A DNA stretch of 64,000 nt from assembly GCF_025836975.1 (NCBI RefSeq), contig NZ_CP107548.1, positions 2,294,001 to 2,358,000 of the forward strand, read 5' to 3'. The DNA comes from Pollutimonas sp. M17. GTDB taxonomy: Bacteria > Pseudomonadota > Gammaproteobacteria > Burkholderiales > Burkholderiaceae_B. The notes under the pieces were generated by a model. The model searched no databases. It was not told the DNA's origin and saw nothing but the letters and a program-made list of their open reading frames with translations. Below, piece after piece: positions 2,591 through 63,733 of the stretch. The translations under genes were made by a program, and so were the position numbers. The stretch's first letter is position 1, and each line of letters begins with the position of its first letter.

Positions 2591-2615
2591 ACATAATATT
2601 AATAGAAAATCTGGC

Positions 2616-5908: not shown

Positions 5909-5911
5909 AAA

Positions 5912-5938
5912 ACAAAGGCACCCGCCGGGTGCCTTTGT
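5912..5938 (-). terminator. rho-independent terminator after rplS
   Basis: A 12-bp perfect stem (ACAAAGGCACCC / GGGTGCCTTTGT) with a 3-nt loop, followed on the minus strand by TTTTATGAATTTT. It ends just 4 bp before the Nudix gene start, separating rplS from that gene. Confidence 0.85.
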
Positions 5939-5961
5939 GGGTTTGCATCGGTGAACGGCGC

Positions 5962-44911: not shown

Positions 44912-45141
44912 TTTCCGGTATTTCCGAGGAATCATGGTTACAGGGACGCACCCGCTGGAAGACCTGGCGCGCATCAGTAGACCGATTCCAGGGAAAACCC
45001 TTAGTTGCGCCGGATTAACGGCGGAATATGAAGGCTCTTTAGGCAGGAATTTCAAATAAAAGCGTATCTGGCCCGGCGGACGTCGGGCACAGGGATTGCT
45101 GTCCACGGTGGACGCATGCCGTTGACGGGGGATAGACTGAT

Positions 45142-45672
45142 ATGGCTTGGCAAACACTATTTGGCGAACGGGCGACAACCAAGATCGCCGCAATCTTCGA
45201 TACCGAAAGCGGGGCGGCATCCGCAGCGGCAACGCTGCATTCCGCCGTCGGCTTGCACACGACGCAATTGCGCCTGGTCAAGCCTTATGAGAAAGGCTAT
45301 TCAAAGAAGCTGGAGCCCGAATCGCGCGGCATTGTGCGAACGGCCGTGCGCGCGCACCTGATTCTGGGCGCCGCCGGCGCCGTCGCCGGCGCGATCCTCT
45401 GGTGCGTGCTATATGCCCTCGAGCTGCCGGCCATCGTTTCATCGCCCCGTGCCAGCGCCGGCGCCATTCTTTTCTTCTCCGTCATCGGCGGCATGCTGCT
45501 GGGCGGGCTGATAACGGCCAGGCCCGATCACCAGTTGGTGATCCAGCGGGTACAGGAAGCCACCCAGGACGGCCGCTGGTCGCTGGTGGTGCATCCGCGC
45601 AGCCCGCGCCAGTGCGATGCGGTCATGGACACGCTTGCCCGCCTGGGGCCTGAAATCGTACGCAGCGTCTGA
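45142..45672 (+). CDS. hypothetical protein with two glycine-rich TM helices
   Basis: Not recognised. 176 aa. An N-terminal soluble domain (about 1-70, [19 protein letters not shown]) reminiscent of stress-protein or DUF1269-like folds, then two glycine-zipper helices [19 protein letters not shown] (72-90) and [19 protein letters not shown] (106-124), and a C-terminal soluble part. Positioned between the chemotaxis receptor and an alpha/beta hydrolase. Confidence 0.6.
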
Positions 45673-45840
45673 CAGCGGCCTGCGAGGCATAGCCCCGACC
45701 GTACCGTTCTCCCGATCGGGTCGCTTCAAGACATATCATCAAAAGAATCCCCGATGCCTTCCCGGTGAGTTGCCTGCTATGCTTTGAGACGCTGCATAAG
45801 CCTCGGAGGGCTGTTTGCATGCGCCACCAAGGAAGCCATA

Positions 45841-47064
45841 ATGAGCGAGACACTAAAGCGCGGCCGGACCCGTGTTCGGGGGTTCAACGATCCGGAAATG
45901 GATTTCCAGCTGATGCGCCAGCTGGGCGTGTCGCGTTACGGAGGCTCGTCCGTCGGCGAATGCCTGGCATTGGCCCAAAGCATACCGGATGCCGATCCCG
46001 ATGCCTGGGTCAGCGCCTTCGCCCAGGCCGGCGAGCGCCAGTCGGTCGATGCAAGCGCCAGGTTGGCGCGCGGCCATCGCGTCAGCGCCAGCCAGCAATA
46101 TCTGCTCGCCAGCAACAGCTACCGTGCGGCCGAGTACTACTGCGGCATGGCCGACCCCAAGCATGGGCAATACGGCCTGCTCAGCCGGCAGGCCTTTCTT
46201 GCCGCCATGCAGTGCGCAGGCCGGGATTGCGCCGAGGTCTGGATCGAGCTGGACGGCCAGAAGCTGCCCGCCTACCACATCCGCAATCCGCAGCGCTCCA
46301 CGGGCCGCACACTGATGATCATCAGCGGTTTCGACGGGACACTGGAAGAAACCTATATGGCCCACGGCCTGGCGGCGCTGGAGCGCGGCCGCGATCTGTT
46401 CCTGTTTACGGGGCCTGGACAAATGGACACGCTGCGCTTCAATCCCGGCAGCCATTTTGTGCCGGATTTCGAACGCGCCGGCCGCGCGGCGGTCGACCAT
46501 CTGCTGGCGCAACCCGATACCGCTCCCGACGCCCTGGCCCTGATGGGCATCAGCTTCGGCGGTTATTTCGCCTTGCGCATCGCGGCGGCCGACAGCCGGA
46601 TCAAAGCTTTGATCCTCAATTCCCCGATCAGCGATCTGCATGCTTATATGAGCTCTTTCGTCGGATTCGATCCGGCGCAGATGCCGGACCCGGACGATTT
46701 CGGACCAGGCGATATCGACATGCTGCCCCCGGAAGCAATGAACGCCCAGACACGCGAAATGGCGCGCAACCTGATGCTCCGCTTCGGGCAGGCAAGCTTC
46801 AAGCAGACATACGTGGCCATGCGCGAGTTCCGGGTGCCCGATGAGGCCTTGGCCCGCATCGCATGCCCGGTGCTGGCCCTGGCGGGCGAAGGCGAGGGCG
46901 CCGAACCCTTGCGGCAGTGGCGGCACGTGCGGGAGCACGTTTCAGGACCGGTGGGGTACTACTGCTTTACCGCCCAAGAAGGCGCGGATGGACATTGCCA
47001 GACGGGCAACCTGGCGTTCTCGGCGGCGGTGTCCATGGACTGGCTGGACGAGACCCTGCCCTGA
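45841..47064 (+). CDS. alpha/beta hydrolase, FrsA/dipeptidyl-peptidase-like
   Basis: 407 aa from the ATG at 45841. An N-terminal helical cap (about 1-140) and a C-terminal hydrolase domain with nucleophile serine in LMGISFGGYFALRIA (about 234-248), acid loop LALAGEGEGAEPLRQW and base near GADGHCQTG (H about 389). The layout resembles the 2,6-dihydroxypseudooxynicotine-hydrolase/FrsA group. Substrate unknown. Confidence 0.75.
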   Translation: MSETLKRGRTRVRGFNDPEMDFQLMRQLGVSRYGGSSVGECLALAQSIPDADPDAWVSAFAQAGERQSVDASARLARGHRVSASQQYLLASNSYRAAEYYCGMADPKHGQYGLLSRQAFLAAMQCAGRDCAEVWIELDGQKLPAYHIRNPQRSTGRTLMIISGFDGTLEETYMAHGLAALERGRDLFLFTGPGQMDTLRFNPGSHFVPDFERAGRAAVDHLLAQPDTAPDALALMGISFGGYFALRIAAADSRIKALILNSPISDLHAYMSSFVGFDPAQMPDPDDFGPGDIDMLPPEAMNAQTREMARNLMLRFGQASFKQTYVAMREFRVPDEALARIACPVLALAGEGEGAEPLRQWRHVREHVSGPVGYYCFTAQEGADGHCQTGNLAFSAAVSMDWLDETLP

Positions 47065-47079
47065 TCGATGCCAGCCTGG

Positions 47080-47337
47080 TCACCAACCTGAACGCAGCCG
47101 CGCGGCCTGGGCCTGATTCAGGCGTCTTGCCTCCTCTTCGGCATAGTCCCGTTCCCCTTGCTCATACCGCCCTTCATGCATGCAGCTGCTGCGATTCCAG
47201 GCGCATGCGCCGCTGCCCGAGGATGCGGCGCCCGCACGCGGGCTGGAATCCGACCCTAGATCGAGTACGGAGCACCCGGAAACAAGCGCGGCAAGAAACA
47301 GCGCGATGCCGCATCGGTTCAATGTTTGAATGGACAT
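47080..47337 (-). CDS. small lipoprotein, unknown function
   Basis: 85 aa. Lipoprotein signal with LAALVSGC (Cys at 22), a Ser/Gly-rich stretch and a charged C-terminus (GRYEQGERDYAEEEARRLNQ). Two further cysteines (about 45 and 52). Converges with the hydrolase gene. Not recognised. Confidence 0.6.
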   Translation of the reverse strand: MSIQTLNRCGIALFLAALVSGCSVLDLGSDSSPRAGAASSGSGACAWNRSSCMHEGRYEQGERDYAEEEARRLNQAQAARLRSGW

Positions 47338-47668
47338 TTTCCTGGCCCTGCAGAAATGCTATGGGCCTTTTATAGCACGCTACACGCCCCTTTACTGGTA
47401 ACAAAAAATGCACGCCAACCGTCGGCGGCAGGATCACCGCCCAGCCCGACAAGGATTCGGTCAGTCCGGGCAACAAAGATCTGACGGGCGTTGTCAGACT
47501 GCACCGCAAGCGCCATCTTGCAGTAAAGATAAATTTGTCATCAGAGTTGAAGGACATCAACAATATTTTGGAGAGCATGGGCTTGTGTTGCCTGCAACCA
47601 CCGTGATCCAAGCGCCTCTTCATGTCTTGCATCAACCTCGCTTCGGCGGGCTCTCTTTTGCACGTTTC

Positions 47669-47689
47669 AGCCCCGAAGGGGCTTTTTTT
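47669..47689 (+). terminator. strong orphan terminator
   Basis: AGCCCC-GAA-GGGGCT followed by seven T's. No gene on the plus strand ends just upstream, apart from the distant hydrolase gene (47064). Confidence 0.85.
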
Positions 47690-47755
47690 CGGCTGTTTCT
47701 TGCCCAGCCGGGAAGTCTGGAGGACACAGCTCGCATAGCTAACCCAGGCACCCTG

Positions 47756-47780
47756 AAAGGGCCGATATTTCTATCGGCCC
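47756..47780 (-). terminator. hairpin after the DedA-family gene
   Basis: Stem GGGCCGATA / TATCGGCCC with a 4-nt loop; the minus strand continues TTTC. About 60 bp past the DedA-family stop. Confidence 0.6.
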
Positions 47781-47841
47781 CGTCTACGTTGTAGCGTTAA
47801 ACATGAGTTGGCCAGAAATACAGCTTAAGCTGTCGCCAAAG

Positions 47842-48525
47842 CTATGGTTCCTCATCGGCAACGGTTTGCCGCAGCATTGAAATCGTACTGAGCGGTGCGA
47901 GTTTGATGAGCGGAGCGGCTCTGTGCCGGCTCTGCCATCGTGCTGCTATATAAGCAAGAACGATGAAGATCATCGCGATGGCACCAAGATATGCAAAACG
48001 AGTCAAGAGCGCCAGCGCTTGTGAAACGGTGTCCTGGAAGATATATCCCAAAGCCAGCGCGGAGCCGGCCCAGATCATGGAACCCATCGCGTCGTAAGCA
48101 AGGAACTTTCGCAAGCTTGTCCTGTTCGCCCCTGCAAGCAGTGTCGTCATTGCGCCGGCGCCCGGTAAAAACTTTGCAATCAATAATGTGTTAAGCCCAT
48201 GTTTTCGATAAAAACCGGCGCTACGCATGACACACACTTCCGGTGACATGGACAGATGGCAGATTCTACGCGTCAATGTGCTACCGAACCGGCGGCCCAT
48301 CCAGTACCACACGAGGTCGGCCGAAAGGCAGGCGAGAACAGCCATACCGAATATCTCGCAAAGTAAGGCGGCGTCAGCCAGGGTTGCCGGGAGCGAGCCG
48401 GCGACAATTAGTGAGGGATAGGCAGGCATAGGCAAACCGATCTGCTCCAGAAAAACCGTTGCGAACAAAAGTAGCTCGGTGTGCTCTTCGAAGGCCACCC
48501 GCACTAAATGAAGCAAATAGTCCAT
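47842..48525 (-). CDS. DedA-family membrane protein
   Basis: 227 aa. ATVFLEQIGLPMPAYPSLIVAGS (in parts, about 22-44), the YWMGRRFG segment (about 74-81), and the FAKFLPGAG-like AKFLPGAGAMTTLLAGANR (about 117-135) mark a DedA/SNARE-associated protein. Members move polyprenyl or phosphatidyl lipids across the inner membrane. Compared with core genes the GC content is moderate. Confidence 0.88.
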   Translation of the reverse strand: MDYLLHLVRVAFEEHTELLLFATVFLEQIGLPMPAYPSLIVAGSLPATLADAALLCEIFGMAVLACLSADLVWYWMGRRFGSTLTRRICHLSMSPEVCVMRSAGFYRKHGLNTLLIAKFLPGAGAMTTLLAGANRTSLRKFLAYDAMGSMIWAGSALALGYIFQDTVSQALALLTRFAYLGAIAMIFIVLAYIAARWQSRHRAAPLIKLAPLSTISMLRQTVADEEP

Positions 48526-49069
48526 GAAGTTGTCTCCGTTTGATCTTCCTATGTAAAGCCAATTCTAGAGAGTCGCTTCATCACGCGGTAGGCTTGAAGA
48601 AGGTCCCACTATATTGCCCTCCGGACATCAATCGAAGCGCGTCATCATCTTGCTGAACTGCTTATCTACTCGAGACGAATCGTTGGCGTTGTAGATATGC
48701 CTACCCTCAGTTTCGCTGCCGAAGGTTGACCGGGATTGATACGAATGCGCACAGGCAACGCTGTACTACCTTCGTGAAGTTGCCTGTGGCATTGTGTGGG
48801 GCAATAGGGACATGGCTGACTCCGCCGGCCGGCCCCAGACTGTCTAGGGTTCGTTTCCGCTGCACTTCGGACTGCTGTAGAGTCTGCACCGTTCCCGAAC
48901 CTTCAACCCACATGACGGCCCTATTTGGTGCGCATAGGGCAACACTGTGAGCATATTTGCAGGCCTACCGTCACACACCATTGCTACCTACCATGATGAC
49001 ACACGGCCTTCTGCCGTGATCAGTGTCCTGTAAACCAGGGCGCTCCCCCAATCGTCCTCTGGAGCAATC
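48526..49069. other. 544-bp region without a gene
   Basis: No coding frame is convincing on either strand. A short hairpin CACGGC-CTTCT-GCCGTG occurs at 49003-49019, and CGTCACA at 48969-48975 resembles an ECF41 -35 but lacks a matching -10. The promoter of the AhpD-like gene must lie here. Confidence 0.45.
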
Positions 49070-49549
49070 ATGACACACCGTATCAATTACATTCAACAAT
49101 CGCCTGAACTATTCAAGGCGTTCATGCAGTTCAGCAACGCCCTGAAGAACACCGCAATCGAAGAGTCAATTCGCGATCTGGTATCGATTCGCGCCTCTCA
49201 GCTGAACGGCTGCAGCTTCTGCCTCGATATGCATGTGAAGGAAGCGCGTATCCACGGCGAACGAGAACTTCGTATTCATCATTTGACAGCATGGCGCGAA
49301 TCCACACTCTTTGAGCCCCGTGAACGCGCAGCGCTTGCTTGGACCGAAGTCCTGACGAAACTACCTGAACATGGCGTCTCCGACGAAATCTACGATCGAG
49401 TGCGCACTCAATTAAGCGAAAAGGAGCTTTCCGACCTGACGTTCGATGTGATGGCCATCAACGCATGGAATCGCGCAAACGTTGCGTTTAAAACTGTCCC
49501 GGGTTCGGCTGATAAGGCTTTCGGATTGGACAAAGCCAACCTCGCCTGA
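49070..49549 (+). CDS. carboxymuconolactone decarboxylase/AhpD-like protein
   Basis: 159 aa. AhpD-type redox motif in ASQLNGCSFCLDMHVKEAR: C48, C51 and H55. This is the alkylhydroperoxidase-like core, so peroxide or thiol chemistry is more likely than lactone decarboxylation. Upstream of an MBL-fold gene on the same strand, 73 bp apart. This family is one of the standard companions of ECF41 sigma factors, one of which lies 4.4 kb away. Confidence 0.88.
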   Translation: MTHRINYIQQSPELFKAFMQFSNALKNTAIEESIRDLVSIRASQLNGCSFCLDMHVKEARIHGERELRIHHLTAWRESTLFEPRERAALAWTEVLTKLPEHGVSDEIYDRVRTQLSEKELSDLTFDVMAINAWNRANVAFKTVPGSADKAFGLDKANLA

Positions 49550-49622
49550 ACGGCGACCTGTTCCCAGTCGCCCCACTGGCTTGCATTCCGGGGCATCGAA
49601 AAACCTATTTGGAGATTTAATC

Positions 49623-50543
49623 ATGCTTAGTTTAGACGACACCCTTGCTCCCGACAGTGTGGATACCGCTGATCTGGTGCCATCACGTTACGCAGTGCAG
49701 ATCGGCAACATTGACGTATTGGTGATCAGCGATGGAGTTCTACCGCTTCCCACCGCAATGCTCGGACATAATGCAGATCCCGTCGACCGGGCAGCCTGGA
49801 TGGAAGACATGTTCTTGCCGCCGGACGCGTTCGATTGGGCACTGAACGTGGTCGTGGTACGCAGTGGCGAGCAAGTCATACTAATCGATGCTGGACTGGG
49901 GTCGGACCCCGACTTGCAGCTACCCCGTGCAGGGCAGACAGTAAAACGGCTGCAGTCCGCAGGCATCAATCTTGCCAGCGTGACCGATGTGGTACTCACT
50001 CATATGCATATGGATCACATCGGTGGACTACTTGTCGAAGGTGTGAAGGATCAACTGCGCCCCGACCTGCGTATCCATGTGGCGGCCGCCGAGGTAAAGT
50101 TTTGGGAGTCGCCCGACTTCTCCCTTACTTCGATGCCGACTGGGTTCCCCGATGCGCTTCGATCAACCGCGACGCGGTTCATAAAGGAGTACGGCAGCTA
50201 CTTGCGACCGTTCGAGGACGAATACGAGGTAGCCCCGGGGGTGGTAGCCCGACGTACGGGTGGTCATACCCCAGGGCACGTCGTAGTTCGTGTAGCGTCC
50301 GACGGTGAGGGATTAACCTTCGCCGGCGACGCCGTGTTTACAGTTGGATTCGACCATCCCGACTGGTACAACGGCTTCGAACATGATCCTGAGGAAGCAG
50401 CTCGCGTTCGACGTGGCCTCTTACAGGAAGTCGCGACATCCGGCGAGTTGCTGGTGGCAACTCACCTGCCGTTTCCATCCGTTGGTCGAGTGGCGGTCGA
50501 CGGCGACGCCTTCCGTTGGGTACCCGTCTTCTGGGACTACTGA
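49623..50543 (+). CDS. MBL-fold metallo-hydrolase
   Basis: 306 aa from the ATG at 49623 (GGAG 8 nt upstream). Zinc motif LTHMHMDHIGG (H127, H129, D131, H132), RRTGGHTPGHVVV for the next histidine, FAGDAVFTVG and VATHLPFPSVG for the remaining ligands. The fold is that of lactonases and related hydrolases; substrate unknown. Probably cotranscribed with the AhpD-like gene and the micro-ORF that follows. Confidence 0.87.
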   Translation: MLSLDDTLAPDSVDTADLVPSRYAVQIGNIDVLVISDGVLPLPTAMLGHNADPVDRAAWMEDMFLPPDAFDWALNVVVVRSGEQVILIDAGLGSDPDLQLPRAGQTVKRLQSAGINLASVTDVVLTHMHMDHIGGLLVEGVKDQLRPDLRIHVAAAEVKFWESPDFSLTSMPTGFPDALRSTATRFIKEYGSYLRPFEDEYEVAPGVVARRTGGHTPGHVVVRVASDGEGLTFAGDAVFTVGFDHPDWYNGFEHDPEEAARVRRGLLQEVATSGELLVATHLPFPSVGRVAVDGDAFRWVPVFWDY

Positions 50544-50594
50544 CCACTTGTCAAGTCTGGCCCGAGCAATCGGGCTTTCTCTTTGGAGGATTTT

Positions 50595-50669
50595 ATGGCT
50601 ATCCTAAAACAAGCCGCGTTCACCCTTGTGATGATCGTAGGCATACCGTTCTTCATCCCAGAGCATTAG
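50595..50669 (+). CDS. 24-aa putative membrane micro-protein
   Basis: A 24-codon frame, MAILKQAAFTLV then MIVGIPFFIPEH, with an optimal GGAGG located 6 nt before the ATG. The hydrophobic central part (about 7-21) would fit a single short membrane helix. It lies 51 bp after the MBL-fold gene. The ribosome site and the sequence character argue for translation, but length alone gives no proof. Confidence 0.45.
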   Translation: MAILKQAAFTLVMIVGIPFFIPEH

Positions 50670-50714
50670 GCCGCCTTGACATAATGTAATAGTTTGAAAA
50701 AACAAGACTGGCAG

Positions 50715-50741
50715 CGTCACACGAGGCAGTATTCATACGTC
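50715..50741 (+). promoter_or_regulatory. candidate ECF41-type promoter
   Basis: CGTCACA at 50715-50721, 16 nt, then CGTC at 50738-50741. The published ECF41 consensus, as I recall it, is TGTCACA near -35 and CGTC near -10. It would give a start about 10 nt before the LysR ATG at 50751, i.e. almost no leader. Confidence 0.35.
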
Positions 50742-50759
50742 TAGTCAGGTATGAATACT
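50728..50759. promoter_or_regulatory. inverted repeat over the LysR start codon
   Basis: Perfect 11-bp arms AGTATTCATAC (50728-50738) and GTATGAATACT (50749-50759), 10 nt apart. The right arm contains the LysR ATG and the left arm overlaps the candidate -10. This is a likely operator for autorepression. Confidence 0.55.
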
Positions 50760-51773
50760 CACGCTTTCCTCTCCACATCGCATGAGCAGCCGCGCCGTCC
50801 GCTTATCGGGGCGGCCGACTCACTCGCCAATACCTTCGTCACTAGTTATGCGGGTGTTATTGCATTTCTGGCCGTCGCCAATGAAGGCAGCTTCTCGCGT
50901 GCAAGTGAACGTCTGGGCATCGGACGCTCGGCGGTGAGCCGCAGCGTGCAAAAGCTTGAGGCACAGCTGGACGCTCGTTTATTTCACCGCACGACGCGCA
51001 GTACATCATTAACCCGCGAAGGCGAACTATTCTACGAAAACTGCCAGCCAGGCGTGATACGTATCGTGCGGGCGCTGGAGGACATGCGTGAACTGCGAAA
51101 CGGCCCGCCAAGGGGGCACCTACGCATTCACTCGACGCTCGGCTTCGGGCGCAAGGTAATTGCTCCGCTGCTACAAAGCTTTCATGCACAGTACCCTGAT
51201 ATCACGCTGGAGCTTCTGCTGGACGACCGTCCTGCTGATTTCACCGCAGACCGTATCGACGTATCGTTTCGCGACGGCCGAATGGAAAACTGCGATATCG
51301 TAGCTCGCCAGTTGATTCCAATGCAGATGATCGTATGTGCTTCGCCTGGGTATGCGGCAGCCTATGACCTACCGCGCCATATCGATGATCTGGGTGAACA
51401 TCACTGCATTAACTTTTGCACGACCTTGGGGCGTGCCAGAGAATGGGAGTTCAAGATCGATGGCTATGCCCAGAGATATGTTCCGTCCGCCCACCATACG
51501 TTCAATGATTTGGATCTGATTTTACAAGCGGTACTGAACGACCAGGGCATCGCACAACTTCCTGCTTACCTGGTATGCGACCTGCTCAATGACCGAAAAC
51601 TGGTCGCTTGCCTGGCACAGTATGCTCCCGACGATGGCGGCCACTACCTATGCTATCTAAGTCGCAAACAGCTTCCTGCCAGAATTCGTGTATTCGTTGA
51701 CTACATCACCGAACAAATTCGTTCGCTCGATATCCAATGCCTGACTACGCTGGTGAACGTGGCTGCGGCCTGA
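50751..51773 (+). CDS. LysR-family transcriptional regulator
   Basis: 340 aa. About 34 residues precede the winged helix-turn-helix (VIAFLAVANEGSFSRASERL to LFHRTTRSTSLTREGE, about 36-93), an unusual N-terminal extension for LysR proteins; no internal start codon gives the normal length. The substrate-binding domain follows (about 120-320). A weak AGG is the only ribosome site. Probably controls the NmrA-like gene 112 bp downstream or the cluster upstream. Confidence 0.85.
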   Translation: MNTHAFLSTSHEQPRRPLIGAADSLANTFVTSYAGVIAFLAVANEGSFSRASERLGIGRSAVSRSVQKLEAQLDARLFHRTTRSTSLTREGELFYENCQPGVIRIVRALEDMRELRNGPPRGHLRIHSTLGFGRKVIAPLLQSFHAQYPDITLELLLDDRPADFTADRIDVSFRDGRMENCDIVARQLIPMQMIVCASPGYAAAYDLPRHIDDLGEHHCINFCTTLGRAREWEFKIDGYAQRYVPSAHHTFNDLDLILQAVLNDQGIAQLPAYLVCDLLNDRKLVACLAQYAPDDGGHYLCYLSRKQLPARIRVFVDYITEQIRSLDIQCLTTLVNVAAA

Positions 51774-51885
51774 CGAACCCTCCATTGATGCGCTCAATGC
51801 AACACCATGAGTCCGCTTTCGGCTCTACCGCATGTCCGGGCTCAACCCTACAATTTTCATATCCACCTACATCCAGGAGAATGCT

Positions 51886-52641
51886 ATGAAAATCGTTGTC
51901 ATTGGAGGCACCGGCCTCATCGGCAGCAAAGTGGTCGAAATATTAAAGGCGCAGGGACATGAGGTTATTGCCGCAGCTCCTGCAACAGGCATCAATACCA
52001 TCACCGGTGAGGGTCTATCGCAAGCCATGGCAGGCACCTCTGTTGTCGTGGATCTTGCCAACTCCCCATCGTTCGCCGACGAAGATGTACTGGAGTTCTT
52101 TGAAACCTCTGGTCGCAATATCTTCGCCGCCGAAATTGCGGCCGGGGTACAACATCACGTTGCCCTGTCTGTTGTAGGAACGGACCGCCTGGCACAAAGC
52201 GGCTATTTCCGCGGAAAAATAGCGCAAGAGAAACTCATACGAGAGTCAGGCGTGCCATATACCATCGTTCACTCAACACAATTTTTCGAATTTCTCGGCG
52301 GCATTGCGCAGGCAGGCAGCTCAGGAGAAGCGGTTCGGATATCACCTGCGTTCTTCCAGCCGATTTCTTCGAGTGACGTCGCAGCGGCGGTAGCGGATTA
52401 CGCAATTGGTGCTCCCTGCAATGGCATAGTCGAGATTGCTGGCCCAGAGCGTGTAAAGCTCTCTGACCTGGTCCAACGTTACCTGAAGGCAATCTCTGAT
52501 TCGCGTAGCGTGGTAGAAGATGAACACGCTCTCTATTTCGGTGCGGAGCTTAAAAACGACACGCTGATGCCCAAGGCCAACCCCCGCCTTGGCGCCGTGA
52601 ACTTTGATACATGGCTTGCCCAGTCGCACGTATCGAAATAG
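51886..52641 (+). CDS. NmrA-like NAD(P)-binding epimerase
   Basis: 251 aa. Rossmann motif GGTGLIG (7-13) with MKIVVIGGTGLIGSKVVEIL; a PTIVHSTQFFEFL-type segment (VPYTIVHSTQFFEFLGGIA, about 125-143) and SSSDVAAAVADYAIG mark the atypical SDR/NmrA family. AGGAGA upstream supports the start. Followed 19 bp later by the Ohr-type gene. Epimerase-type genes of this sort are regular ECF41 partners. Confidence 0.8.
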   Translation: MKIVVIGGTGLIGSKVVEILKAQGHEVIAAAPATGINTITGEGLSQAMAGTSVVVDLANSPSFADEDVLEFFETSGRNIFAAEIAAGVQHHVALSVVGTDRLAQSGYFRGKIAQEKLIRESGVPYTIVHSTQFFEFLGGIAQAGSSGEAVRISPAFFQPISSSDVAAAVADYAIGAPCNGIVEIAGPERVKLSDLVQRYLKAISDSRSVVEDEHALYFGAELKNDTLMPKANPRLGAVNFDTWLAQSHVSK

Positions 52642-52660
52642 GTGACAAGCTCAGCACGTT

Positions 52661-53176
52661 ATGGCCACATTAAAAGCACCACCCTTATCCTTATTAGAAA
52701 AATACCGTGGACGTGATACCAAAACGCTTTACTCCACCACCGTCACAGTGACAGGCGGCGATGCCAGTCATGGACGCGCATCTGGCGTTGCACGCTCTGA
52801 TGACGGCAATCTGGACGTCCACCTGCGCCTACCAGAGGCGCTGGGCGGACCCGGGGGTGGCTCCAACCCGGAGCAGTTGTTTGCCGCCGGTTATGCCGCC
52901 TGTTTCCATGGCGCTCTAAGCTTGCTAGCTGCGCGCGACGGAATCCCCATACCCGATTGTTCAGTGGAGGTTCAGGTTGACTTCAGCCGTGACCCTATGG
53001 ATGGCTTGTTTGTCCTGACCGCCTACACACGGATTCGTTTACCTGGTGTAGACCAAGCCATCGCCGAAGAGCTGGTTCGCAATACCGAACGCTTTTGTCC
53101 ATATACCAAGATGGCACGGCAAGGCATCACGAATATTGTGGCGCTCGTGTCAACGGACAAGACCGGCGAACGTTAG
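52661..53176 (+). CDS. ohr: organic hydroperoxide resistance protein (Ohr/OsmC family)
   Basis: 171 aa thiol peroxidase. Redox cysteines C81 in FAAGYAACFHGAL and C146 in RFCPYTKMARQGI; the N-terminus KTLYSTTVTVTGGDASHGRA and NPEQLFAAGYAACF are family-typical. The protein is about 25 residues longer at the N-terminus and C-terminus than ordinary Ohr. Detoxifies organic peroxides; usually controlled by OhrR, which is not seen here. Confidence 0.9.
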   Translation: MATLKAPPLSLLEKYRGRDTKTLYSTTVTVTGGDASHGRASGVARSDDGNLDVHLRLPEALGGPGGGSNPEQLFAAGYAACFHGALSLLAARDGIPIPDCSVEVQVDFSRDPMDGLFVLTAYTRIRLPGVDQAIAEELVRNTERFCPYTKMARQGITNIVALVSTDKTGER

Positions 53177-53214
53177 CACTAGAGGTTCCCCGCTTTTTAC
53201 TCTTGAATAACACA

Positions 53215-53967
53215 ATGACCAAACTCAATACTCAAGTTGTGCTGGTGACTGGCGGTGGCGCCGGCATTGGCCTTTCTGCAGCCTCAAAGTTTGCCAAAAG
53301 CGGCGCTCGCGTAGTCATCACCGGCCGCAGGCAGGAAGCACTGGAGCAAGCCGTACGCACCGACTCATGCATTGATTACATCGTGGCCGACGCAGGCAAC
53401 CCCTCCGACGCCGCGCGAACTATCGAAGAACTCATACATCGACACGGACGTCTCGATGTGCTGATCAACAATGCCGGGGCCGGTGCCATCCTGCCCCTGT
53501 CGCAGGCCAGCTTTGCGCAAATCAACGAAATATTCTCTGTCAACGTCTTTGGCCCGTCATTGTTGACTACAGCGGCCCTGCCTTATCTGAAGCGATCCGG
53601 CGGCAGCATCATCAATGTGACGAGCACCTTTGGACACAAGGCCGCAGAGGCTCTCTCACACTATGCAGCCAGCAAAGCGGCGCTTGAGCATATGACCAGA
53701 TGTTGGGCGCTCGAACTTGCTCGCGATGGCATACGCGTAAATGCCGTGGCTGCAGGCCCTACGGAAAGCAATTTCCTGTCGGAGAGAATGAAGTTATCGG
53801 CTGAGCAGATAGAAAGCGTTAAAGCGAGCGAGCGTGCTCGTATTCCGCTGGGTCGACGCGGAATACCTGACGATGTGGCCAACTGGATCGTTGCTCTCGC
53901 ATCTCCCGATGCCGCATGGATCACTGGCCAGGTGTTTACCGTCGATGGCGGGCTCAGTGTGACCTGA
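53215..53967 (+). CDS. short-chain dehydrogenase/reductase
   Basis: 250 aa from the ATG at 53215. Classical SDR: TGGGAGIG (12-19), NNAGAG (about 87-92), the YAASK active-site motif, and C-terminal IPDDVANWIVALASPDAAWITGQVFTVDGGLS. NADP preference is suggested by TGRRQEA after beta-2. Third gene of the NmrA-ohr-SDR row; substrate unknown. Confidence 0.9.
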   Translation: MTKLNTQVVLVTGGGAGIGLSAASKFAKSGARVVITGRRQEALEQAVRTDSCIDYIVADAGNPSDAARTIEELIHRHGRLDVLINNAGAGAILPLSQASFAQINEIFSVNVFGPSLLTTAALPYLKRSGGSIINVTSTFGHKAAEALSHYAASKAALEHMTRCWALELARDGIRVNAVAAGPTESNFLSERMKLSAEQIESVKASERARIPLGRRGIPDDVANWIVALASPDAAWITGQVFTVDGGLSVT

Positions 53968-53995
53968 TAAACCCCTGATGCTCGGCAAAATGCAG

Positions 53996-54844
53996 TCAAG
54001 CGGAGGGCGAGCGAGTGATTGAATGCGATGCCTCTTGTACGCTTACGCTTCCAAAAGGGTGTCGACCCTCTTTAGTCGAGTGCAGTCGGCGGTTGCTCCA
54101 TAGCCCTGGCGCCCTATGAGATAACACATGCACAGGTGATTGCGTATCCTGTTCTCGAGATTGGATCATCTGTGCATTATCACTACTCAGCAGCCGAGCA
54201 TCTTCTACCAGCAATGCACTGATGCCTGCAAAGTCAGCCCGTTCAAGAACCTGGACCAAGATCTTAAGCAGACGATGATGTACTTCCCGAGAAACGGAAA
54301 TATGTCGCCGTTTTTTTCGCAGCTGGAGTTTTGCTCGTCTAACGAGTTGGCGGCAGGCTTCCTGTGTCCTATGTAATATTTGAGCTATCTGATCGTAGTC
54401 AATATCAAACACTTCGTGCATCAGGAAGGCCGCACGTGTCTCCGGTGTAAGCTGTTCAAGCAGTACTAAGTATGCCATCGACACATCGTCAGCTCGCTCA
54501 TTGATATCTTGGGGTGTTGTAGGGGATTCCGTCATCTGAAACTCCTGCAACCATAGTTCTGAACAGTGTTCACGATGGGTTTTGATAACGCGTAGCCTGT
54601 CAACGGACAATCTTGTCGTGACTGAAACAAGCCATGCTTCCTCATTCTCGATCTCTTGCCCGATTGCTGCATTCCACCGCAACCAAGTATCTTGAACTAT
54701 ATCTTCAGCCTCGGCGACCGAACCCAAGATACGGTAGGCGATTTTTTCCAGCCGCCGCCGAAGTCGAATAAAAGTGCATTCGGCGTCTCCCCTACCTTGC
54801 TGACTTTGCTGGGTAGCAACTGACGACAATGATTCGTGCTTCAT
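53996..54844 (-). CDS. ECF sigma factor of the ECF41/SigJ type with decayed C-terminus
   Basis: 282 aa. Region 2 (FIRLRRRLEKIAYRILGSVAEAEDIVQDTWLRW, in parts) and region 4 (LLEQLTPETRAAFLMHEVFDIDYDQIAQIL then TQEACRQLVRRA) are intact; LWLQE between them is a drifted version of the ECF41 linker. ECF41 proteins then carry an about 100-aa SnoaL-like domain that governs activity; here only its start (VHHRLLKILVQVLERADFAGISALL) is recognisable and the last about 80 residues have no family likeness. Stands beside AhpD-like, epimerase and SDR genes. Confidence 0.8.
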   Translation of the reverse strand: MKHESLSSVATQQSQQGRGDAECTFIRLRRRLEKIAYRILGSVAEAEDIVQDTWLRWNAAIGQEIENEEAWLVSVTTRLSVDRLRVIKTHREHCSELWLQEFQMTESPTTPQDINERADDVSMAYLVLLEQLTPETRAAFLMHEVFDIDYDQIAQILHRTQEACRQLVRRAKLQLRKKRRHISVSREVHHRLLKILVQVLERADFAGISALLVEDARLLSSDNAQMIQSREQDTQSPVHVLSHRAPGLWSNRRLHSTKEGRHPFGSVSVQEASHSITRSPSA

Positions 54845-54891
54845 AGCATTCCCTCTGGCATGTGCCTTTGCTTACGGACTGCTTTGGCAGA

Positions 54892-54912
54892 CTGCCGCAC
54901 GATGTGCGGCAG
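54892..54912. repeat. hairpin between chloroperoxidase-like and sigma genes
   Basis: CTGCCGCAC / GTGCGGCAG around a 3-nt loop. It is not followed by T's on the minus strand, so it is a weak terminator at best. Confidence 0.5.
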
Positions 54913-54919
54913 CTTTATC

Positions 54920-55900
54920 TCAACTGCGGATAAAGGAAAGTAGGTCAGCATTGAATCTGTCTCGATGCGTCTCAGGCAAACCGTGTGGAGCGTTTGGGTA
55001 GACGATCAGTTTCGACTTTTTGATGAGCTTTGCTGAGGCACGGCCAGCTGCTTCGATGGGCACAATTTGATCATCGTCCCCATGGACGATAAGCGTAGGC
55101 ACATCGATCTTTTTCAGGTCTTCAGTGAAATCTGTTTCTGAAAAGGCCTTAATCGATTCGTAGGTGTTATGGTGCCCACCCTGCATACCTTCGCGCCACC
55201 ATTCGTCGATTAATCCCTGTGATGACTTTGCACCAGGACGATTAAAACCATAGAATGGGCCAGCAGGAAGATCTTTGTAAAACTGTGATCGGTTTGCTAG
55301 CTGCGCAGCCCGGATTTCGTCGAATACTTCGACCGGCAATCCTTTGGGGTTTCTCTCCGTCTTGAGCATGAGTGGTGTTACGGCTGAAACCAAAACGACT
55401 TTGGCAACACGCCGGGTACCGTGACGGCCAATATACCGGGCAACTTCTCCGCCACCCGTCGAGAAGCCGACGAGCACCGCGTCCTTAAGTTTCAAGGTTT
55501 CTATAACCGTTGCAAGATCATCTGCATAATGGTCCATGTCGTTACCCAGCCATGTCTGGCTGGATCGCCCATGACCGCGCCGATCATGGGCGATGGTGCG
55601 AAATCCCTGTGAGGCGAGGAACAGCATTTGAGCTGCCCAGCTATCTGAACTGAGGGGCCACCCATGGCATAGTATGACGGTGGGTCCAGACCCCCAATCC
55701 TTGTAGTAAATCTGTGTGCCGTCCGGCGTGGTGATTATGTTGGAGGATGTCAGGGGCGATGCAGCTTTCATGACGGTTGCTGGCGTGCCGCCGGCAACAG
55801 CACGATTGGCAACGCCTGAGGTCAATAGAGCACCGGCTGCAGAAGCGCTGCTAAGAAGCAGACTCCGGCGATTGGAGATAAAAGCGTCAGTAGGTGACAT
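54920..55900 (-). CDS. alpha/beta hydrolase, chloroperoxidase-like, Tat-exported
   Basis: 326 aa from the ATG at 55900. Tat-type signal with [17 protein letters not shown] (R11, R12). The hydrolase core has [10 protein letters not shown], nucleophile serine in [24 protein letters not shown] and the final histidine in [10 protein letters not shown]. Family resembles non-heme chloroperoxidases and arylesterases. A TetR-type operator 43 bp upstream suggests control by the TetR gene next door. Confidence 0.85.
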
Positions 55901-55942
55901 GATGATATTCCTTTGCAAGTTAAACATCAGAGGACAAAGCAC

Positions 55943-55974
55943 TTATTAATAGATGACCAGTCATATATTAATAA
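55943..55974. promoter_or_regulatory. TetR-type operator before the chloroperoxidase-like gene
   Basis: A 32-bp near-palindrome centred on ATGACC-AGTCAT; the arms TTATTAATAGATGACC and AGTCATATATTAATAA match at 14 of 16 positions. The same core ATGACCAGTC occurs ahead of tetR at 56612-56643. Confidence 0.7.
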
Positions 55975-55996
55975 GGTAAAAAAAGAGTTGAGGTGG

Positions 55997-56587
55997 TTAC
56001 TTCAAAATATGCGGTAATGTGATGTCAATGAAACGTTGAAATGCGTTGCCGTTGCGTTCTATCTTGGAACGTAATGTGGCTCCCTCGAAACTATCTATCA
56101 TGATAGCCGCCAGCTGATGTGCATCTCGCCGTTTGCTGGAGCCAGCATTGCTGGATGCTTCTTTTATACACGCCGCTATCGCGGCTTCCCACTTACCGAG
56201 AATATGGGTCAAAGTCGAGCGTACTCCATCACTGTTGTTGGCTAGTTCGAGAGACAGGTTCCCTATAAGACATCCGATAGTGAAGTTGTTCGCGGCATGT
56301 TCGTCCACAAGCAGACTAAAGAAGCGCTTGATTCGAATTAAGGGCTCTATGCTTGCGTCATACAATACAGGCACCAAGCGGTTCTCAATGTCGGTCCAAT
56401 ATTCTTGCAATATGGCAGACGCAAATGATTCCTTACTATCAAAATAGCTATAGAAGGATCCCTTGGGGATTTTCGCAACAGCCGCTATGTCTTGAACGCC
56501 AGAGGCATGGAACCCAACTTCATGAACCAGGCGTCCACCGTCTGTTAGCAAGCGCTGAAGAATTTCGGGATTGGGGCGTCTTGGCAT
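55997..56587 (-). CDS. TetR-family transcriptional regulator
   Basis: 196 aa. N-terminal helix-turn-helix ASGVQDIAAVAKIPKGSFYSYFDSKESF (in parts, about 28-55) and a C-terminal ligand domain with CLIGNLSLELAN (about 105-116), typical of the NemR-like group that uses redox-active cysteine near this position. It shares its operator core with the upstream region of the hydrolase gene, so both are probably repressed by it. Confidence 0.9.
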   Translation of the reverse strand: MPRRPNPEILQRLLTDGGRLVHEVGFHASGVQDIAAVAKIPKGSFYSYFDSKESFASAILQEYWTDIENRLVPVLYDASIEPLIRIKRFFSLLVDEHAANNFTIGCLIGNLSLELANNSDGVRSTLTHILGKWEAAIAACIKEASSNAGSSKRRDAHQLAAIMIDSFEGATLRSKIERNGNAFQRFIDITLPHILK

Positions 56588-56611
56588 ATAGTGCTTCCTC
56601 AGTTAGTTGGC

Positions 56612-56643
56612 TTGAATATAAATGACCAGTCGTTTATTGTCAA
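56612..56643. promoter_or_regulatory. TetR-type operator before tetR
   Basis: Imperfect palindrome centred on ATGACC-AGTCGT (12 of 16 positions match), 24 bp upstream of the tetR start. Shares the 10-bp core ATGACCAGTC with 55943-55974. Confidence 0.65.
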
Positions 56644-56781
56644 TGCTTTTTTCATCGACAAGATCCTGCAGCACTTAATCATCGGTCGGATCTTCGCCAA
56701 GCGGCTACGCTGGCCCAGACGTTTTGTGTCATGAGCCGAGCGGTCGCAGGTATGTGAGCTGTCATTTATCGAACTCATCAA

Positions 56782-56811
56782 GGCTTTATGCTTCGATATG
56801 AGCATAAAGCC
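56782..56811. repeat. inverted repeat at the end of the DUF4148 gene
   Basis: GGCTTTATGCT / AGCATAAAGCC, 8 nt loop, overlapping the stop codon. No T-run on the minus strand; a weak terminator or mRNA-stabilising structure. Confidence 0.5.
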
Positions 56812-57214
56812 AGCCTTTGCTTATCGCTTCGGCCAGTTCGGCTTTGACTTGCTCGCGGGTCTTACTTGCGAACCCATCCTGAAGAGGATAGTTATAAGGA
56901 AACTGTTCGTTCAGTTTCAGGCCGCTTTCGCCAAAACTTATGTTGCCTGTGCGCATCGCTTCAGCCAGTTCAGCATTGACTTGCTGACGGCTCTTCGTTG
57001 CGACCAATTGTTGTGCGGGATAGCGTTGAGGAAATTGCTCATTCAGCTTTAGGCCGCTTTCATCCGGACTGATGTTTCCTGTACGAATGGCTTCAGCGAG
57101 CTCCGCTTTGACCTGCTCCCGCGTAACAGGAGCGTTGATGCCGGCGGCCATGGCTTGGCCTGCAAGTAGAGAGGTAAAAACGAGCGCAATAGCGTAGGTG
57201 TGAGTACGTGTCAT
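56786..57214 (-). CDS. DUF4148 secreted protein with three internal repeats
   Basis: 142 aa from the ATG at 57214. Signal peptide about 1-23 (ALVFTSLLAGQAMA-AG). The mature part is three repeats: TREQVKAELAEAIRTGNI, SRQQVNAELAEAMRTGNI and TREQVKAELAEAISKG, the first two each followed by SGLKLNEQFP with YP. This is the DUF4148 family common in Burkholderiales, with unknown function; a periplasmic stress role is sometimes proposed. Confidence 0.85.
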   Translation of the reverse strand: MTRTHTYAIALVFTSLLAGQAMAAGINAPVTREQVKAELAEAIRTGNISPDESGLKLNEQFPQRYPAQQLVATKSRQQVNAELAEAMRTGNISFGESGLKLNEQFPYNYPLQDGFASKTREQVKAELAEAISKGWLYAHIEA

Positions 57215-57460
57215 GATAAATCCATTAAGTAAATTGATTGGCTTGAATGACCCCGGAACATATTTCAAGGGGCCTCGGCAAGGAGCTACCTTTACCTCGC
57301 CGATGTAGTCACTTTAAAAGCGACAACCAACTGAATAAATGGCTTGAAAGGACATGTACCTTCCACTCTAATGAAACAATGGAAAGAGCCGAACGGTGTG
57401 ATTAACCGAGTCTAATGAATGTGCTGGTCCCCGGTTAATGGGGAAGAGCCATGGGGAAGA

Positions 57461-57499
57461 GCCGGTAGAGCCGGTAGAGCCGGTAGAGCTGGAAGAGCC
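57461..57499. repeat. 9-bp tandem repeat near ssrA
   Basis: Three perfect copies of GCCGGTAGA (57461-57487) followed by a variant GCTGGAAGA and a partial GCC. A GGGGAAGA element also repeats just upstream. A small VNTR in an otherwise empty 310-bp stretch. Confidence 0.75.
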
Positions 57500-57524
57500 T
57501 GCCCACGTTGGGGCACACAAGAAA

Positions 57525-57552
57525 AACGCCAAGTATGCAAATACTTGGCGTT
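57525..57552 (-). terminator. ssrA terminator
   Basis: Perfect 12-bp stem AACGCCAAGTAT / ATACTTGGCGTT with a 4-nt loop, followed on the minus strand by TTTCTTG. Starts 4 nt after the tmRNA CCA end. Confidence 0.9.
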
Positions 57553-57556
57553 GAAT

Positions 57557-57922
57557 TGGTGGAGTCGGGGGGAATTGAACCCCCGTCCGCAAGCCCTCTG
57601 CAGGCAGTTCTACATGTTTATTCGGTTCACTTTAAGTTTTAACCTTGGAGCGTGCCAGCCGACAGGCCCTTCCTTGGCGATTCACATTAATTTAAGACCA
57701 TGCCGAGTGACCCGGCAAGGCCCGATTCTTTGTAGATGACGCTGCTGTAGGTTTGACCCTACCTAACCCAAAGACAAATTAGTGCAGCGGCTTACCGCAT
57801 TAAGCGGCTAAAGCGAAACGCTCGTCGTTGGCGTTTGTAGTGTTCCAGTGGATTTACGAGCTTACTGGTGCTCGACATGCCCTGCTCTGTTTCGCGACCC
57901 ACGTCGAAGCCGGATCGACCCC
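57557..57922 (-). ncRNA. ssrA: transfer-messenger RNA
   Basis: 366 nt on the minus strand. The 5' end GGGGUCGAUCCGGCUUCGACG pairs with the 3' end CGACUCCACCA to form the acceptor stem; the CCA is encoded. The T-arm reads GGGGGTTCAATTCCCCC. The tag frame at 57800-57832 encodes ANDERFALAA and a stop, the form seen in Bordetella-like bacteria. Rescues stalled ribosomes with SmpB. A consensus -10 lies 9 nt upstream. Confidence 0.97.
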
Positions 57923-57931
57923 AGAAAAGGA

Positions 57932-57937
57932 ATTATA
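57932..57937 (-). promoter_or_regulatory. ssrA -10 box
   Basis: TATAAT on the minus strand, correctly placed 9 nt before the tmRNA 5' end. The -35 region (TGTCTA, 17 nt upstream) is weak. Confidence 0.7.
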
Positions 57938-58132
57938 GCTTATTCCTGAGTTTTTAGACAGTATTTCAAGATGGTAAAATCGTCAGCTGCCTATTTTCAG
58001 GCTTCAGATACCCATAAAAAGATGCATCGCGACCGGGACGACAAGGGCGTGACAATGCGCGGCCCGTAGCGGGCGCCAGCGGTGGAGCGAGTTTGCCTAC
58101 ACAAGCCGACAGGCTTGGCTTTGGAGTCCGTC

Positions 58133-59374
58133 ATGCCCCGTGCCGCAGTCAAGAACCCGCTATTGCAATTCGTCAGCAATGGCAGCCTGGTAGTCCAGAT
58201 AGTGATAGGCCTGCTCGCAGGCATCGTGCTTGGGCTCGTGTCCCCCGCCGCAGCCGGCTGGGTCGATATTGTCGGCGATTTGTTCGTGAATGCCCTGAAG
58301 TCGGTGGCGCCCATCCTGGTGTTCGTGCTGGTGGCCGCATCCATCGCCAATCACAAGAAGGGCCAGCAGACCCGGATGGGGACCATTCTGGTCCTGTACC
58401 TGATCGGCACTTTCGCCGCGGCCCTGGTGGCCGTGGTGGCCAGCTTCATGTTTCCCCTGACCATCCAGCTGAAAACGGACGCCCAGACCCTCAGCGCGCC
58501 GGGCGACATCGTCCAGGTGCTGTCCAATCTGCTCATGAGCGTGGTGGACAACCCCATCACCGCGCTGGCCAATGCCAATTACATCGGCATTCTCGCCTGG
58601 GCCATCGCCATGGGGCTGGCCATGCGCCATGCCCACGGCGCAACCAAGAACGTGATCGCCGACCTGTCGCTGGCGCTGTCCTTTATCGTCAAGGCCGTCA
58701 TACGCCTGGCGCCCATCGGCATCTTCGGCCTGGTCGCCTCGACCATGGCCGAGGCGGGGCTTGACGCACTGCTGGGCTACGCCCGCCTGCTGACGGTGCT
58801 GATCGGCTGCATGCTGTTCGTTGCGCTGGCGGTGAATCCGCTCATCGTTTTTGCCAGGATCCGCCGCAATCCCTATCCACTGGTCTTCACCTGTCTGCGG
58901 GAAAGCGGCATTACGGCTTTCTTCACGCGCAGTTCCGCCGCCAACATTCCAGTCAACCTGGCGTTGTGCAAGCGCCTGGGCCTGCCCGAAGATACCTATT
59001 CGGTGTCCATACCCCTGGGCGCCACCATCAACATGGCGGGCGCAGCCGTGACGATTACCGTGCTGACCCTGGCGGCCGTGAACACGCTGGGCATCCCGGT
59101 GGACTTGCCGACGGCGCTGCTGCTGAGCGTCGTCGCCGCCATATGCGCCTGCGGCGCTTCGGGCGTGGCGGGCGGCTCCCTGCTGCTCATCCCGCTGGCC
59201 TGCAGCCTGTTCGGCATTTCCAATGATCTGGCCATGCAGGTGGTCGGCGTGGGCTTCATCATCGGCGTGCTGCAGGACTCCACGGAAACCGCCCTGAATT
59301 CATCCACCGACGTGCTGTTCACCGCCGCCGGCACCTATTCGCAGATCGCCGACGAAGCGGCCGCCGAAGCCTGA
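58133..59374 (+). CDS. sstT: serine/threonine:sodium symporter
   Basis: 413 aa from the ATG at 58133 (GGAG 8 nt upstream). Dicarboxylate/amino acid:cation symporter family, about 8 helices plus two re-entrant loops: the first near [15 protein letters not shown] (about 262-276, the SSAA variant typical of SstT) and the second near [17 protein letters not shown]. Sequence and length fit SstT better than GltP. An unusually long leader of about 150 nt with a CAAGCC...GGCTTG hairpin precedes it. Confidence 0.92.
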
Positions 59375-59396
59375 TCCCGTCGCCGCAAGCCTGAAA

Positions 59397-59434
59397 AAGA
59401 AAGCCTGGATCGCATCATGCGATCCAGGCTTTTC
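59397..59434. terminator. bidirectional terminator after sstT
   Basis: A perfect 14-bp stem AGCCTGGATCGCAT / ATGCGATCCAGGCT with TTTTCT on the plus side and AAAAAGA on the left side, between the convergent sstT and the 2-hydroxyacid dehydrogenase gene. Confidence 0.88.
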
Positions 59435-59470
59435 TGTTCCGGCAAGGCGCTCTGTCGGGCGCGAGGACAG

Positions 59471-60454: not shown

Positions 60455-60461
60455 CAATGCC

Positions 60462-61832: not shown

Positions 61833-61867
61833 GGAATTTCACTTCACTTAAAAAGACAATTAAACAA

Positions 61868-62842: not shown

Positions 62843-62895
62843 GGATTGTCTCCTCGTGTGTGACGGAATGAAATTCTGTTTGCCGCTGCGCGGGC

Positions 62896-63597: not shown

Positions 63598-63623
63598 GAA
63601 TGCCTCCTGCGAGTTTCGTAGAA

Positions 63624-63641
63624 TTGTATACGATTATACAA
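63624..63641. promoter_or_regulatory. candidate GntR operator
   Basis: TTGTATA-CGAT-TATACAA: perfect 7-bp arms, 27 bp upstream of the gntR start. FadR-type regulators of carboxylate pathways often bind TTGTATAC-type palindromes. Probably autoregulatory. Confidence 0.65.
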
Positions 63642-63655
63642 ATCACGCCAATACA

Positions 63656-63681
63656 AAAACGGCGGGCTGGAGAGCCCGCCG
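63656..63681 (-). terminator. nirK terminator
   Basis: Stem CGGCGGGCT / AGCCCGCCG with a 4-nt loop, followed on the minus strand by TTTTTG, about 50 bp after the nirK stop. Confidence 0.85.
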
Positions 63682-63733
63682 CATTCAAGCCGCGTTCGCC
63701 GTGCGCCGGCGCAAGCCGGCGGCGGCTGGAGGC

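Follow-up and report, generated by a model that had tools for sequence, protein, structure and literature searches.

A naturally truncated ECF41-derived sigma factor beside a NemR-like repressor in a low-GC island of Pollutimonas sp. M17

ECF41 sigma factors, among them Ecf41Bli, Ecf41Rsp, and SigJ of M. tuberculosis, combine the sigma-2 and sigma-4 domains with a SnoaL-like extension of about 100 residues, and their genes neighbor those for a carboxymuconolactone decarboxylase (CMD), an epimerase, and an oxidoreductase. In passages of the founding study, the ECF41 promoter is given as TGTCACA-N16-CGTC, partial removal of the extension is reported to raise activity about 20-fold in the Bli protein (204 amino acids left) and about 120-fold in the Rsp protein (206 amino acids left), and the condition inducing ECF41-dependent expression is stated to be not known (PMC3426412). 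According to excerpts of other papers, the inhibitory domain contacts the WLPEP linker region (PMC7730460, PMC8999054), and ECF41 members differ in whether they act in oxidative stress (PMC8103513). A natural ECF41 without the extension was not found described in the passages, titles, and opening lines of abstracts available from the ECF41 literature. Here, we describe an ECF41-derived sigma factor that lacks it, encoded in a 64,000-nucleotide stretch of the Pollutimonas sp. M17 genome (NZ_CP107548.1, positions 2,294,001–2,358,000; hereafter, the window). As far as the sequence can say, this protein works like a truncated ECF41, and it is encoded in one unit (unit 2) with a TetR repressor and a hydrolase:

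53996–54844, minus strand: ECF41-derived sigma factor (sigma-70 regions 2 and 4) without a SnoaL domain; homology to full-length ECF41 stops near residue 222
54920–55900, minus strand: cofactor-free chloroperoxidase-like alpha/beta hydrolase (PF00561; PDB 1a8s, chloroperoxidase F, E 2e-135)
55949–55964: predicted TetR box before the hydrolase–sigma genes
55997–56587, minus strand: NemR/AcuR-like TetR repressor (PF16925 and PF00440)
56615–56643, minus strand: sigma-70-type tetR promoter TTGACA-N17-TATATT, with a predicted TetR box (56618–56633) in its spacer

Measured on the full-length protein of a relative (G082), the homology between the window sigma and full-length ECF41 proteins extends to about residue 205. 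The TIGR02957 profile matches residues 2–197 of 281 with 211 bits against a cut-off of 323, and the SigJ profile PRK09636 also stays below its cut-off (194.5 versus 271); the best PDB match is SigJ (5xe7). The WLPEP motif, which 56 of the 58 compared full-length ECF41 proteins have, reads WLQEF, and both DGGGK and NPDK are missing, the patterns D.GGK/R and NP.K being found in 43 and 55 of the 58, respectively. Three relatives (G055, G082, and G079) also encode truncated forms, and all four proteins depart from the YxGxWLPEP signature at Y94, G96, P100, and P102. In contrast to this loss, the window sigma retains nearly all positions that are at least 85% conserved among the 58 full-length proteins in sigma-2 (26 of 27) and sigma-4 (21 of 21), but keeps 5 of 9 such positions of the linker and 2 of 7 of the residual extension (Fisher p 4e-6, for positions that are not independent of one another). 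The corresponding ranges for the other three proteins are 25–26 of 27, 19–21 of 21, 3–5 of 9, and 3–4 of 7. The underlying alignment was made without window_54167, L011, L081_19922, and two rows of other ECF sigma factors. In an AlphaFold2 model built from a shallow alignment of 8 sequences, the helices of sigma-2 and sigma-4 are fairly confident (mean predicted local distance difference test score, pLDDT, 55.6 overall), while the chain from about residue 195 onward shows no strands and no order (pLDDT below 50). A frameshift as the source of the short protein was rejected; the other two same-strand frames hold stops and, by eye, no SnoaL continuation.

The truncated proteins of the window, G055, G082, and G079 form one clade (SH-aLRT 99) located inside ECF41, in a tree from a quick search whose two outgroup rows are very long-branched and whose root is unsure; the duplicates window_54167 and L011, L017, and the fragment L081_19922 were set aside. 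Within this clade, the ratio of nonsynonymous to synonymous substitution rates (dN/dS) is 0.09–0.20 in sigma-2/sigma-4, 0.17–0.36 in the linker, and 0.32–0.69 in the residual extension (five of six pairs), as calculated by our own Nei–Gojobori script, with one sigma-4 value undefined. The gene has no stops in the four genomes, at dS values up to about 1.5. By these comparisons of sequence, the truncated clade is under purifying selection. An earlier note on this DNA had described the sigma factor as ECF41/SigJ-type. Its tree position bears out the kinship, but the profile scores below cut-off and the loss of SnoaL, WLPEP, and DGGGK/NPDK stop short of the full assignment; since failure of a defining feature bars membership, we regard the protein as ECF41-derived and not as an ECF41 member.

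Among 80 named ECF41 loci, 78 run for at least 272 residues from the start of the match to the stop, one meets a contig end (L144), and one stops at 146 (L138); a WLPEP-like motif is present in 76. In the family, sigma matches were found in 163 of 250 genomes, loci were retained for 20 of the matches, and wider neighborhoods were taken at 13 places in 13 genomes as well as at L064 and L070, leaving out G020 and G058, which are among the best-ranked. Since C-termini were compared in a subset of these matches, further truncated forms may exist, and four is a lower bound.

The natural protein resembles the laboratory truncations Ecf41Bli-204 and Ecf41Rsp-206, in which the extension is removed at about the same place and its first part is left. 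By residue number, the break (at about 205 in full-length G082 ECF41) appears close to the engineered 204 and 206, the Bli and Rsp proteins lying outside our alignment. Unlike these constructs, the window sigma belongs to a natural clade of four, has lost the linker signature, and has probably gained a repressor. It differs from known ECF41 factors in lacking the SnoaL extension, WLPEP, and DGGGK/NPDK and in its place in a TetR–hydrolase unit, while the sigma-2/sigma-4 sequence and tree position are alike.

The TetR protein shares with the NemR/AcuR repressors the TetR_N and TetR_C_13 domains and a palindromic box at its own promoter, but scores below the AcuR equivalog cut-off (136 versus 247 bits), and its target would be a sigma factor instead of nemA/gloA. 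Its best PDB match is 3bru (E 4e-26), for which no function is named. In the match to NemR (4yze, E 7e-18), C106 and K175 are in register, given an inferred two-residue chain offset, and the pair is invariant in four relatives. Cys106–Lys175 is the hypochlorite switch of NemR, according to passages of PMC7464077. The window contains two copies of a TGACYGGTCA-like box, with boxes at the matching two places in G055, G082, and G079; in G079, the second box stands directly before the sigma gene. The promoter and box layout of tetR is repeated in G055 and G082, and in G079 with TTGACG. Exact sites for the box in the 3.85 Mb genome are confined to the two places in the window. Among six more distant tetR relatives, a GACYRGTC box lies within 100 bp in four (L156, L157, L172, and L173) and only at a distance in L174, and L158 has none. 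A TetR search of 268 family genomes gave four strong and three weak matches at E 1e-30, and a search of 399 genomes of the order gave one match at E 1e-40, the window's own. The hydrolase in turn shows a strong match to cofactor-free haloperoxidases such as chloroperoxidase F across the whole catalytic domain and, unlike them, has an N-terminal twin-arginine (RR) motif of Tat type, as read by eye. In G082, a second chloroperoxidase-like hydrolase gene (L031:10148-11134) lies between the short-chain dehydrogenase/reductase (SDR) gene and the truncated sigma gene; its product is about 71% identical to the exported one and shows no RR stretch by eye.

A site of the ECF41 type is found in the same island, before the lysR gene of a second unit (unit 1):

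50715–50741, plus strand: ECF41-type promoter CGTCACA-N16-CGTC, 10 of 11 consensus bases, before lysR
50729–50758: inverted repeat GTATTCATAC-N10-GTATGAATAC, a candidate operator for LysR that overlaps the start of lysR and the -10 element

Such a promoter precedes all 14 family LysR genes examined, matching at 10 or 11 of the 11 positions and always with a 16-base spacer. These genes come from 12 genomes, with L064 and the window belonging to one genome and L070 alone representing G079. As a control, 8 of 3000 random 260-bp pieces of the window reach 10 of 11. An ECF41 promoter before AhpD was rejected: none of the 14 loci reaches 9 of 11, and the best scores of 7 or 8 are at chance level, as are the best scores in the window before AhpD and before the sigma gene (8 of 11). 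Of the 15 named loci in L072–L087 that have LysR, 12 carry the promoter 36–167 bp before the LysR match. The other three, all Lysobacteraceae (L082, L084, and L087), carry it about 330–340 bp upstream on the same strand, with CGAC as the -10 element in L082 and L084. In a genome scan, the sole perfect site stands at 0.7077 Mb in front of a LysR paralogue, with a cupin gene and an epimerase remnant next to it; seven further sites, including that of the island, have one mismatch. These positions suggest that, in this bacterial branch, ECF41 acts on an operon headed by LysR and not on the decarboxylase gene; the placement before LysR differs from the described systems. The annotated LysR ATG follows the -10 element after just nine bases (50741–50751), which implies either a nearly leaderless transcript or a LysR start annotated too far upstream. 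The altered -35 element was rejected as a hallmark of truncated-sigma islands, CGTCACA being present also in L040, L072, L077, and L081. The inverted repeat is perfect in just 3 of 28 sequences (the window, G082, and G019) and matches at 9 of 10 in G055, and thus it is a candidate operator only; as a general operator it was rejected, being mostly near chance or absent in more distant species.

Considering these features together, we give about an even chance to a reading in which an ECF41 sigma factor has been freed of its brake, its control has passed to a NemR-like repressor, and it serves the LysR–epimerase–Ohr–SDR operon. Unit 2 would comprise TetR, an exported chloroperoxidase-like hydrolase, and an ECF41-derived sigma without the SnoaL brake and the linker patch that it contacts. 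Since both brake and patch are lost, we expect the sigma to be active as soon as it is produced, and control would have moved to transcription. The NemR-like TetR would occupy the promoter of its own gene and that of the hydrolase–sigma genes; modification of this repressor, perhaps by an electrophile, hypochlorite, or other reactive chlorine, would lead to production of both hydrolase and sigma. The sigma would then transcribe the LysR–epimerase–Ohr–SDR operon, with the exported hydrolase co-made. Sigma activity, its target, and TetR binding to the boxes are what we infer here, and our guess at the signal draws on the chemistry of NemR and the families of the enzymes. Slightly less than even is the chance we give to a rewiring as such, in which the SnoaL domain and its interface were discarded, oxidant sensing moved to a thiol-based TetR at the sigma promoter, and the old ECF41 promoter continued to be served.

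Several observations weigh against this proposal. The truncated sigma evolves faster over the whole gene (dN/dS 0.19–0.26) than the neighboring enzymes and regulators (0.035–0.13) or full-length ECF41 (0.05–0.10), its tail is nearly unconstrained (0.28–1.3), and the evidence comes from four genomes, three of which have closely related islands. DedA (0.28) and the small ORF at 56786–57214 (0.12–0.25), which we take to be DUF4148-like, give values similar to its whole-gene ratio. The island is visibly decaying, with deletions affecting a sigma gene, emrAB/oprM, and cupin. The same loss could have reached the truncated sigma, which would then be a decaying gene without sigma activity, TetR serving itself and the hydrolase and the operon relying on LysR or housekeeping promoters. 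The variable C-termini of the four proteins fit this course as well, but the constraint on sigma-2/sigma-4, the intact frames, the retention of conserved positions there while the linker signature is gone, and the box placed directly before the sigma gene in G079, where the hydrolase is absent, speak against it, and we consider decay unlikely. In passages of the founding study, a protein deprived of the whole extension is inactive (PMC3426412), and the residual extension is only weakly constrained here. The same passages describe truncation as shifting RNA polymerase binding and activity in different directions, which would suit a dominant-negative role, the protein competing for RNA polymerase or ECF41 promoters but starting no transcription. 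We regard such a role as highly improbable, given the hyperactivity of partial truncations at a similar place (PMC3426412) and the conserved sigma-2/sigma-4 positions.

A further difficulty for the proposal of a freed sigma under TetR control is that a gene for a full-length ECF41 is also present in the genome, next to an AhpD gene at 3.35 Mb (L032 in G000); its product could drive the island LysR operon in trans, leaving the truncated sigma another target. The LysR paralogue at 0.7077 Mb has the genome's only perfect promoter in front of it, while the island site matches at 10 of 11 through a -35 one base off the consensus, a change shared with four loci in which no truncated sigma was seen; G055, G082, and G079 likewise each carry a full-length ECF41 with the cluster. 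The retained sigma-2/sigma-4 positions indicate that the truncated sigma may well read the same promoter, and both factors may act; control solely in trans seems to us a minor prospect. With at most one mismatch allowed, the promoter gives 8 genome-wide matches versus 32 for a reversed-pattern control, and the TetR box 5 (one being the other strand of the same box) versus 8. Consequently, only position and conservation carry weight. The Cys/Lys pair is found also in the non-NemR relatives 3bru and 3knw and may therefore be family-wide rather than exclusive to NemR. Finally, the mechanism, including expression and binding, is drawn entirely from sequence.

The operon that the sigma would serve belongs to unit 1, whose genes were called, like those of unit 2, with Pfam/NCBIfam profiles:

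49070–49549, plus strand: AhpD/carboxymuconolactone decarboxylase family protein with CxxC (PF02627, TIGR00778; PDB relatives 2gmy and PA0269, 2o4d)
49623–50543, plus strand: metallo-beta-lactamase (MBL)-fold hydrolase, lactonase/organophosphate-hydrolase-like (PF00753; PDB relatives ancestral lactonase 5hif and methyl parathion hydrolase 1p9e)
50595–50669, plus strand: cupin gene remnant, internally deleted, with a 24-residue translation; junction at 50644–50646 versus L029 8536 and 8867
50751–51773, plus strand: LysR-type regulator (PF00126 and PF03466)
51886–52641, plus strand: NmrA/NAD(P)H-binding epimerase-like SDR (PF13460, PF05368, PF01370)
52661–53176, plus strand: Ohr organic hydroperoxide reductase (TIGR03561, 116 bits versus a cut-off of 88.9)
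53215–53967, plus strand: SDR oxidoreductase (PF13561)

By gene order, unit 1 (AhpD–MBL–(cupin)–LysR–epimerase–Ohr–SDR) is part of a conserved ECF41 stress cluster. A gene for full-length ECF41 normally stands at the head of this cluster; in the window, that gene and most of cupin are deleted. In 13 family stretches with full-length ECF41 (12 mapped together and L070 of G079), AhpD adjoins in 12 and a close LysR is present in 12, while cupin, epimerase, Ohr, and SDR are variable. Gene order was mapped in 33 of the 80 named loci fetched. Of the 16 nearest (L072–L087), AhpD and LysR are each found in 15; the genera are Burkholderia, Paraburkholderia, Caballeronia, Achromobacter, Bordetella, Lysobacter, Stenotrophomonas, and Parapusillimonas, with Variovorax (L085) as the exception. 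LysR has no match in the 17 more distant mapped loci (L088–L104). The G082 cluster contains both sigma genes, cupin, and the second hydrolase gene. In G079, the units lie on two contigs, with full-length ECF41–cupin–LysR–epimerase–Ohr–SDR on C1 and TetR–truncated sigma facing MBL–AhpD on C31; in its full-length cluster (L070), LysR is preceded at 36 bp by a perfect promoter, and AhpD has no match. In the G055 island, SDR and the truncated sigma are separated by IS66-like genes and a reverse-transcriptase ORF (all named by eye) and by GajA/GajB. The latter form a Gabija-type pair (L030:846-4626). A second partial copy of the cluster, with cupin, LysR, and an epimerase remnant, is located at about 0.707 Mb in G000 (L064:9500-11150).

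Both units lie within an island that ends at the tmRNA gene:

47790–57556: low-GC island with approximate bounds, a terminator-like flank on the left and the ssrA 3' end on the right
47842–48525, minus strand: DedA/VTT membrane protein (PF09335), 85% amino acid identity to the G055 island copy
48857–48907: deletion scar where emrA-like remnants abut sequence that starts, in G055, 31 bp past the full-length ECF41 stop
56786–57214, minus strand: small ORF outside the profile scan, present in the G055 and G082 islands
57557–57922, minus strand: tmRNA gene ssrA (ARAGORN), the right edge of the island

We read the island as an acquired, partly decayed one composed of two units, with approximate boundaries for both the island and its deletions. 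Its GC content is 0.529, compared with 0.616 in the remaining window. The genome is a single 3.85 Mb contig. Cluster genes and ssrA are on separate contigs in G019, G055, G082, and G079, and the ssrA neighborhood of these four relatives has no island. In G079, the counterpart of window positions 47756–47786 sits 28 bp from the tmRNA end, a spacing of about 9.8 kb in the window. Identity to G055 is 89–92% in island DNA, compared with 79–80% in the ssrA-side and left core flanks (70% in one piece), and this difference fits horizontal acquisition. As with ssrA-integrated genomic islands, it is absent from the same site in relatives; unlike them, no integrase was found among the 10 Pfam-scanned window proteins and no convincing att-like flanking direct repeats in 44000–64000. 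A 60-bp sequence at 57391–57450 is a dispersed repeat, with further copies in G000, G055, G019, and G082, several near contig ends, and was rejected as an att site on account of these copies. A plasmid origin was also rejected: megablast returned 10 records whose pieces cover at most 9% of the query in MBL, CMD, or SDR genes, and on the TetR side all plasmid relatives at E ≤1e-20 (189 records) are less than 60% identical. At the scar, 48865–48904 aligns with L029 (G055) 2001–2040, and sequence from 48907 on aligns with L029 from 6794 on. The intervening L029 sequence carries emrA/emrB/oprM-like ORFs (named by eye) and ECF41 at 5882–6763. Relative to G055, the window lacks L029 1634–2000 and about 4.75 kb (L029 2041–6793), the latter deletion running from within the emrA-like gene to 31 bp past the full-length ECF41 stop. 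Elsewhere, GC content drops to 0.44–0.49 in window positions 2001–5000, over ORFs 2517–3314, 3548–4048, and 4208–4918, possibly a second insertion.

These results also place the remaining claims of the earlier note. The genes it named (AhpD, MBL, LysR, epimerase, Ohr, SDR, sigma, hydrolase, and TetR) are all matched by profiles, as is VTT/DedA, the rise in AT is real, and the neighbors are conserved in relatives with full-length ECF41. The CMD, epimerase, and SDR partners it saw beside an ECF41 factor are present, but this association belongs to the full-length sigma deleted here; the genes do lie together, but as two units, with the truncated sigma in the separate TetR–hydrolase–sigma unit rather than in a single one. 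The cupin remnant, the ECF41-type promoter, the two TetR boxes, and the tmRNA gene at the right edge are additional to it. Its theme of peroxide or halogen detoxification is plausible from the gene families and the NemR-like repressor. Induction by hypochlorous acid could not be taken from the literature, the NaOCl-induced decarboxylase and Ohr genes in passages on a B. cenocepacia microarray (PMC2830190) not being tied to an ECF41 cluster. A natural brake-less ECF41 combined with an apparent NemR-like repressor would offer a handle both on the signal and on the job of the SnoaL domain.

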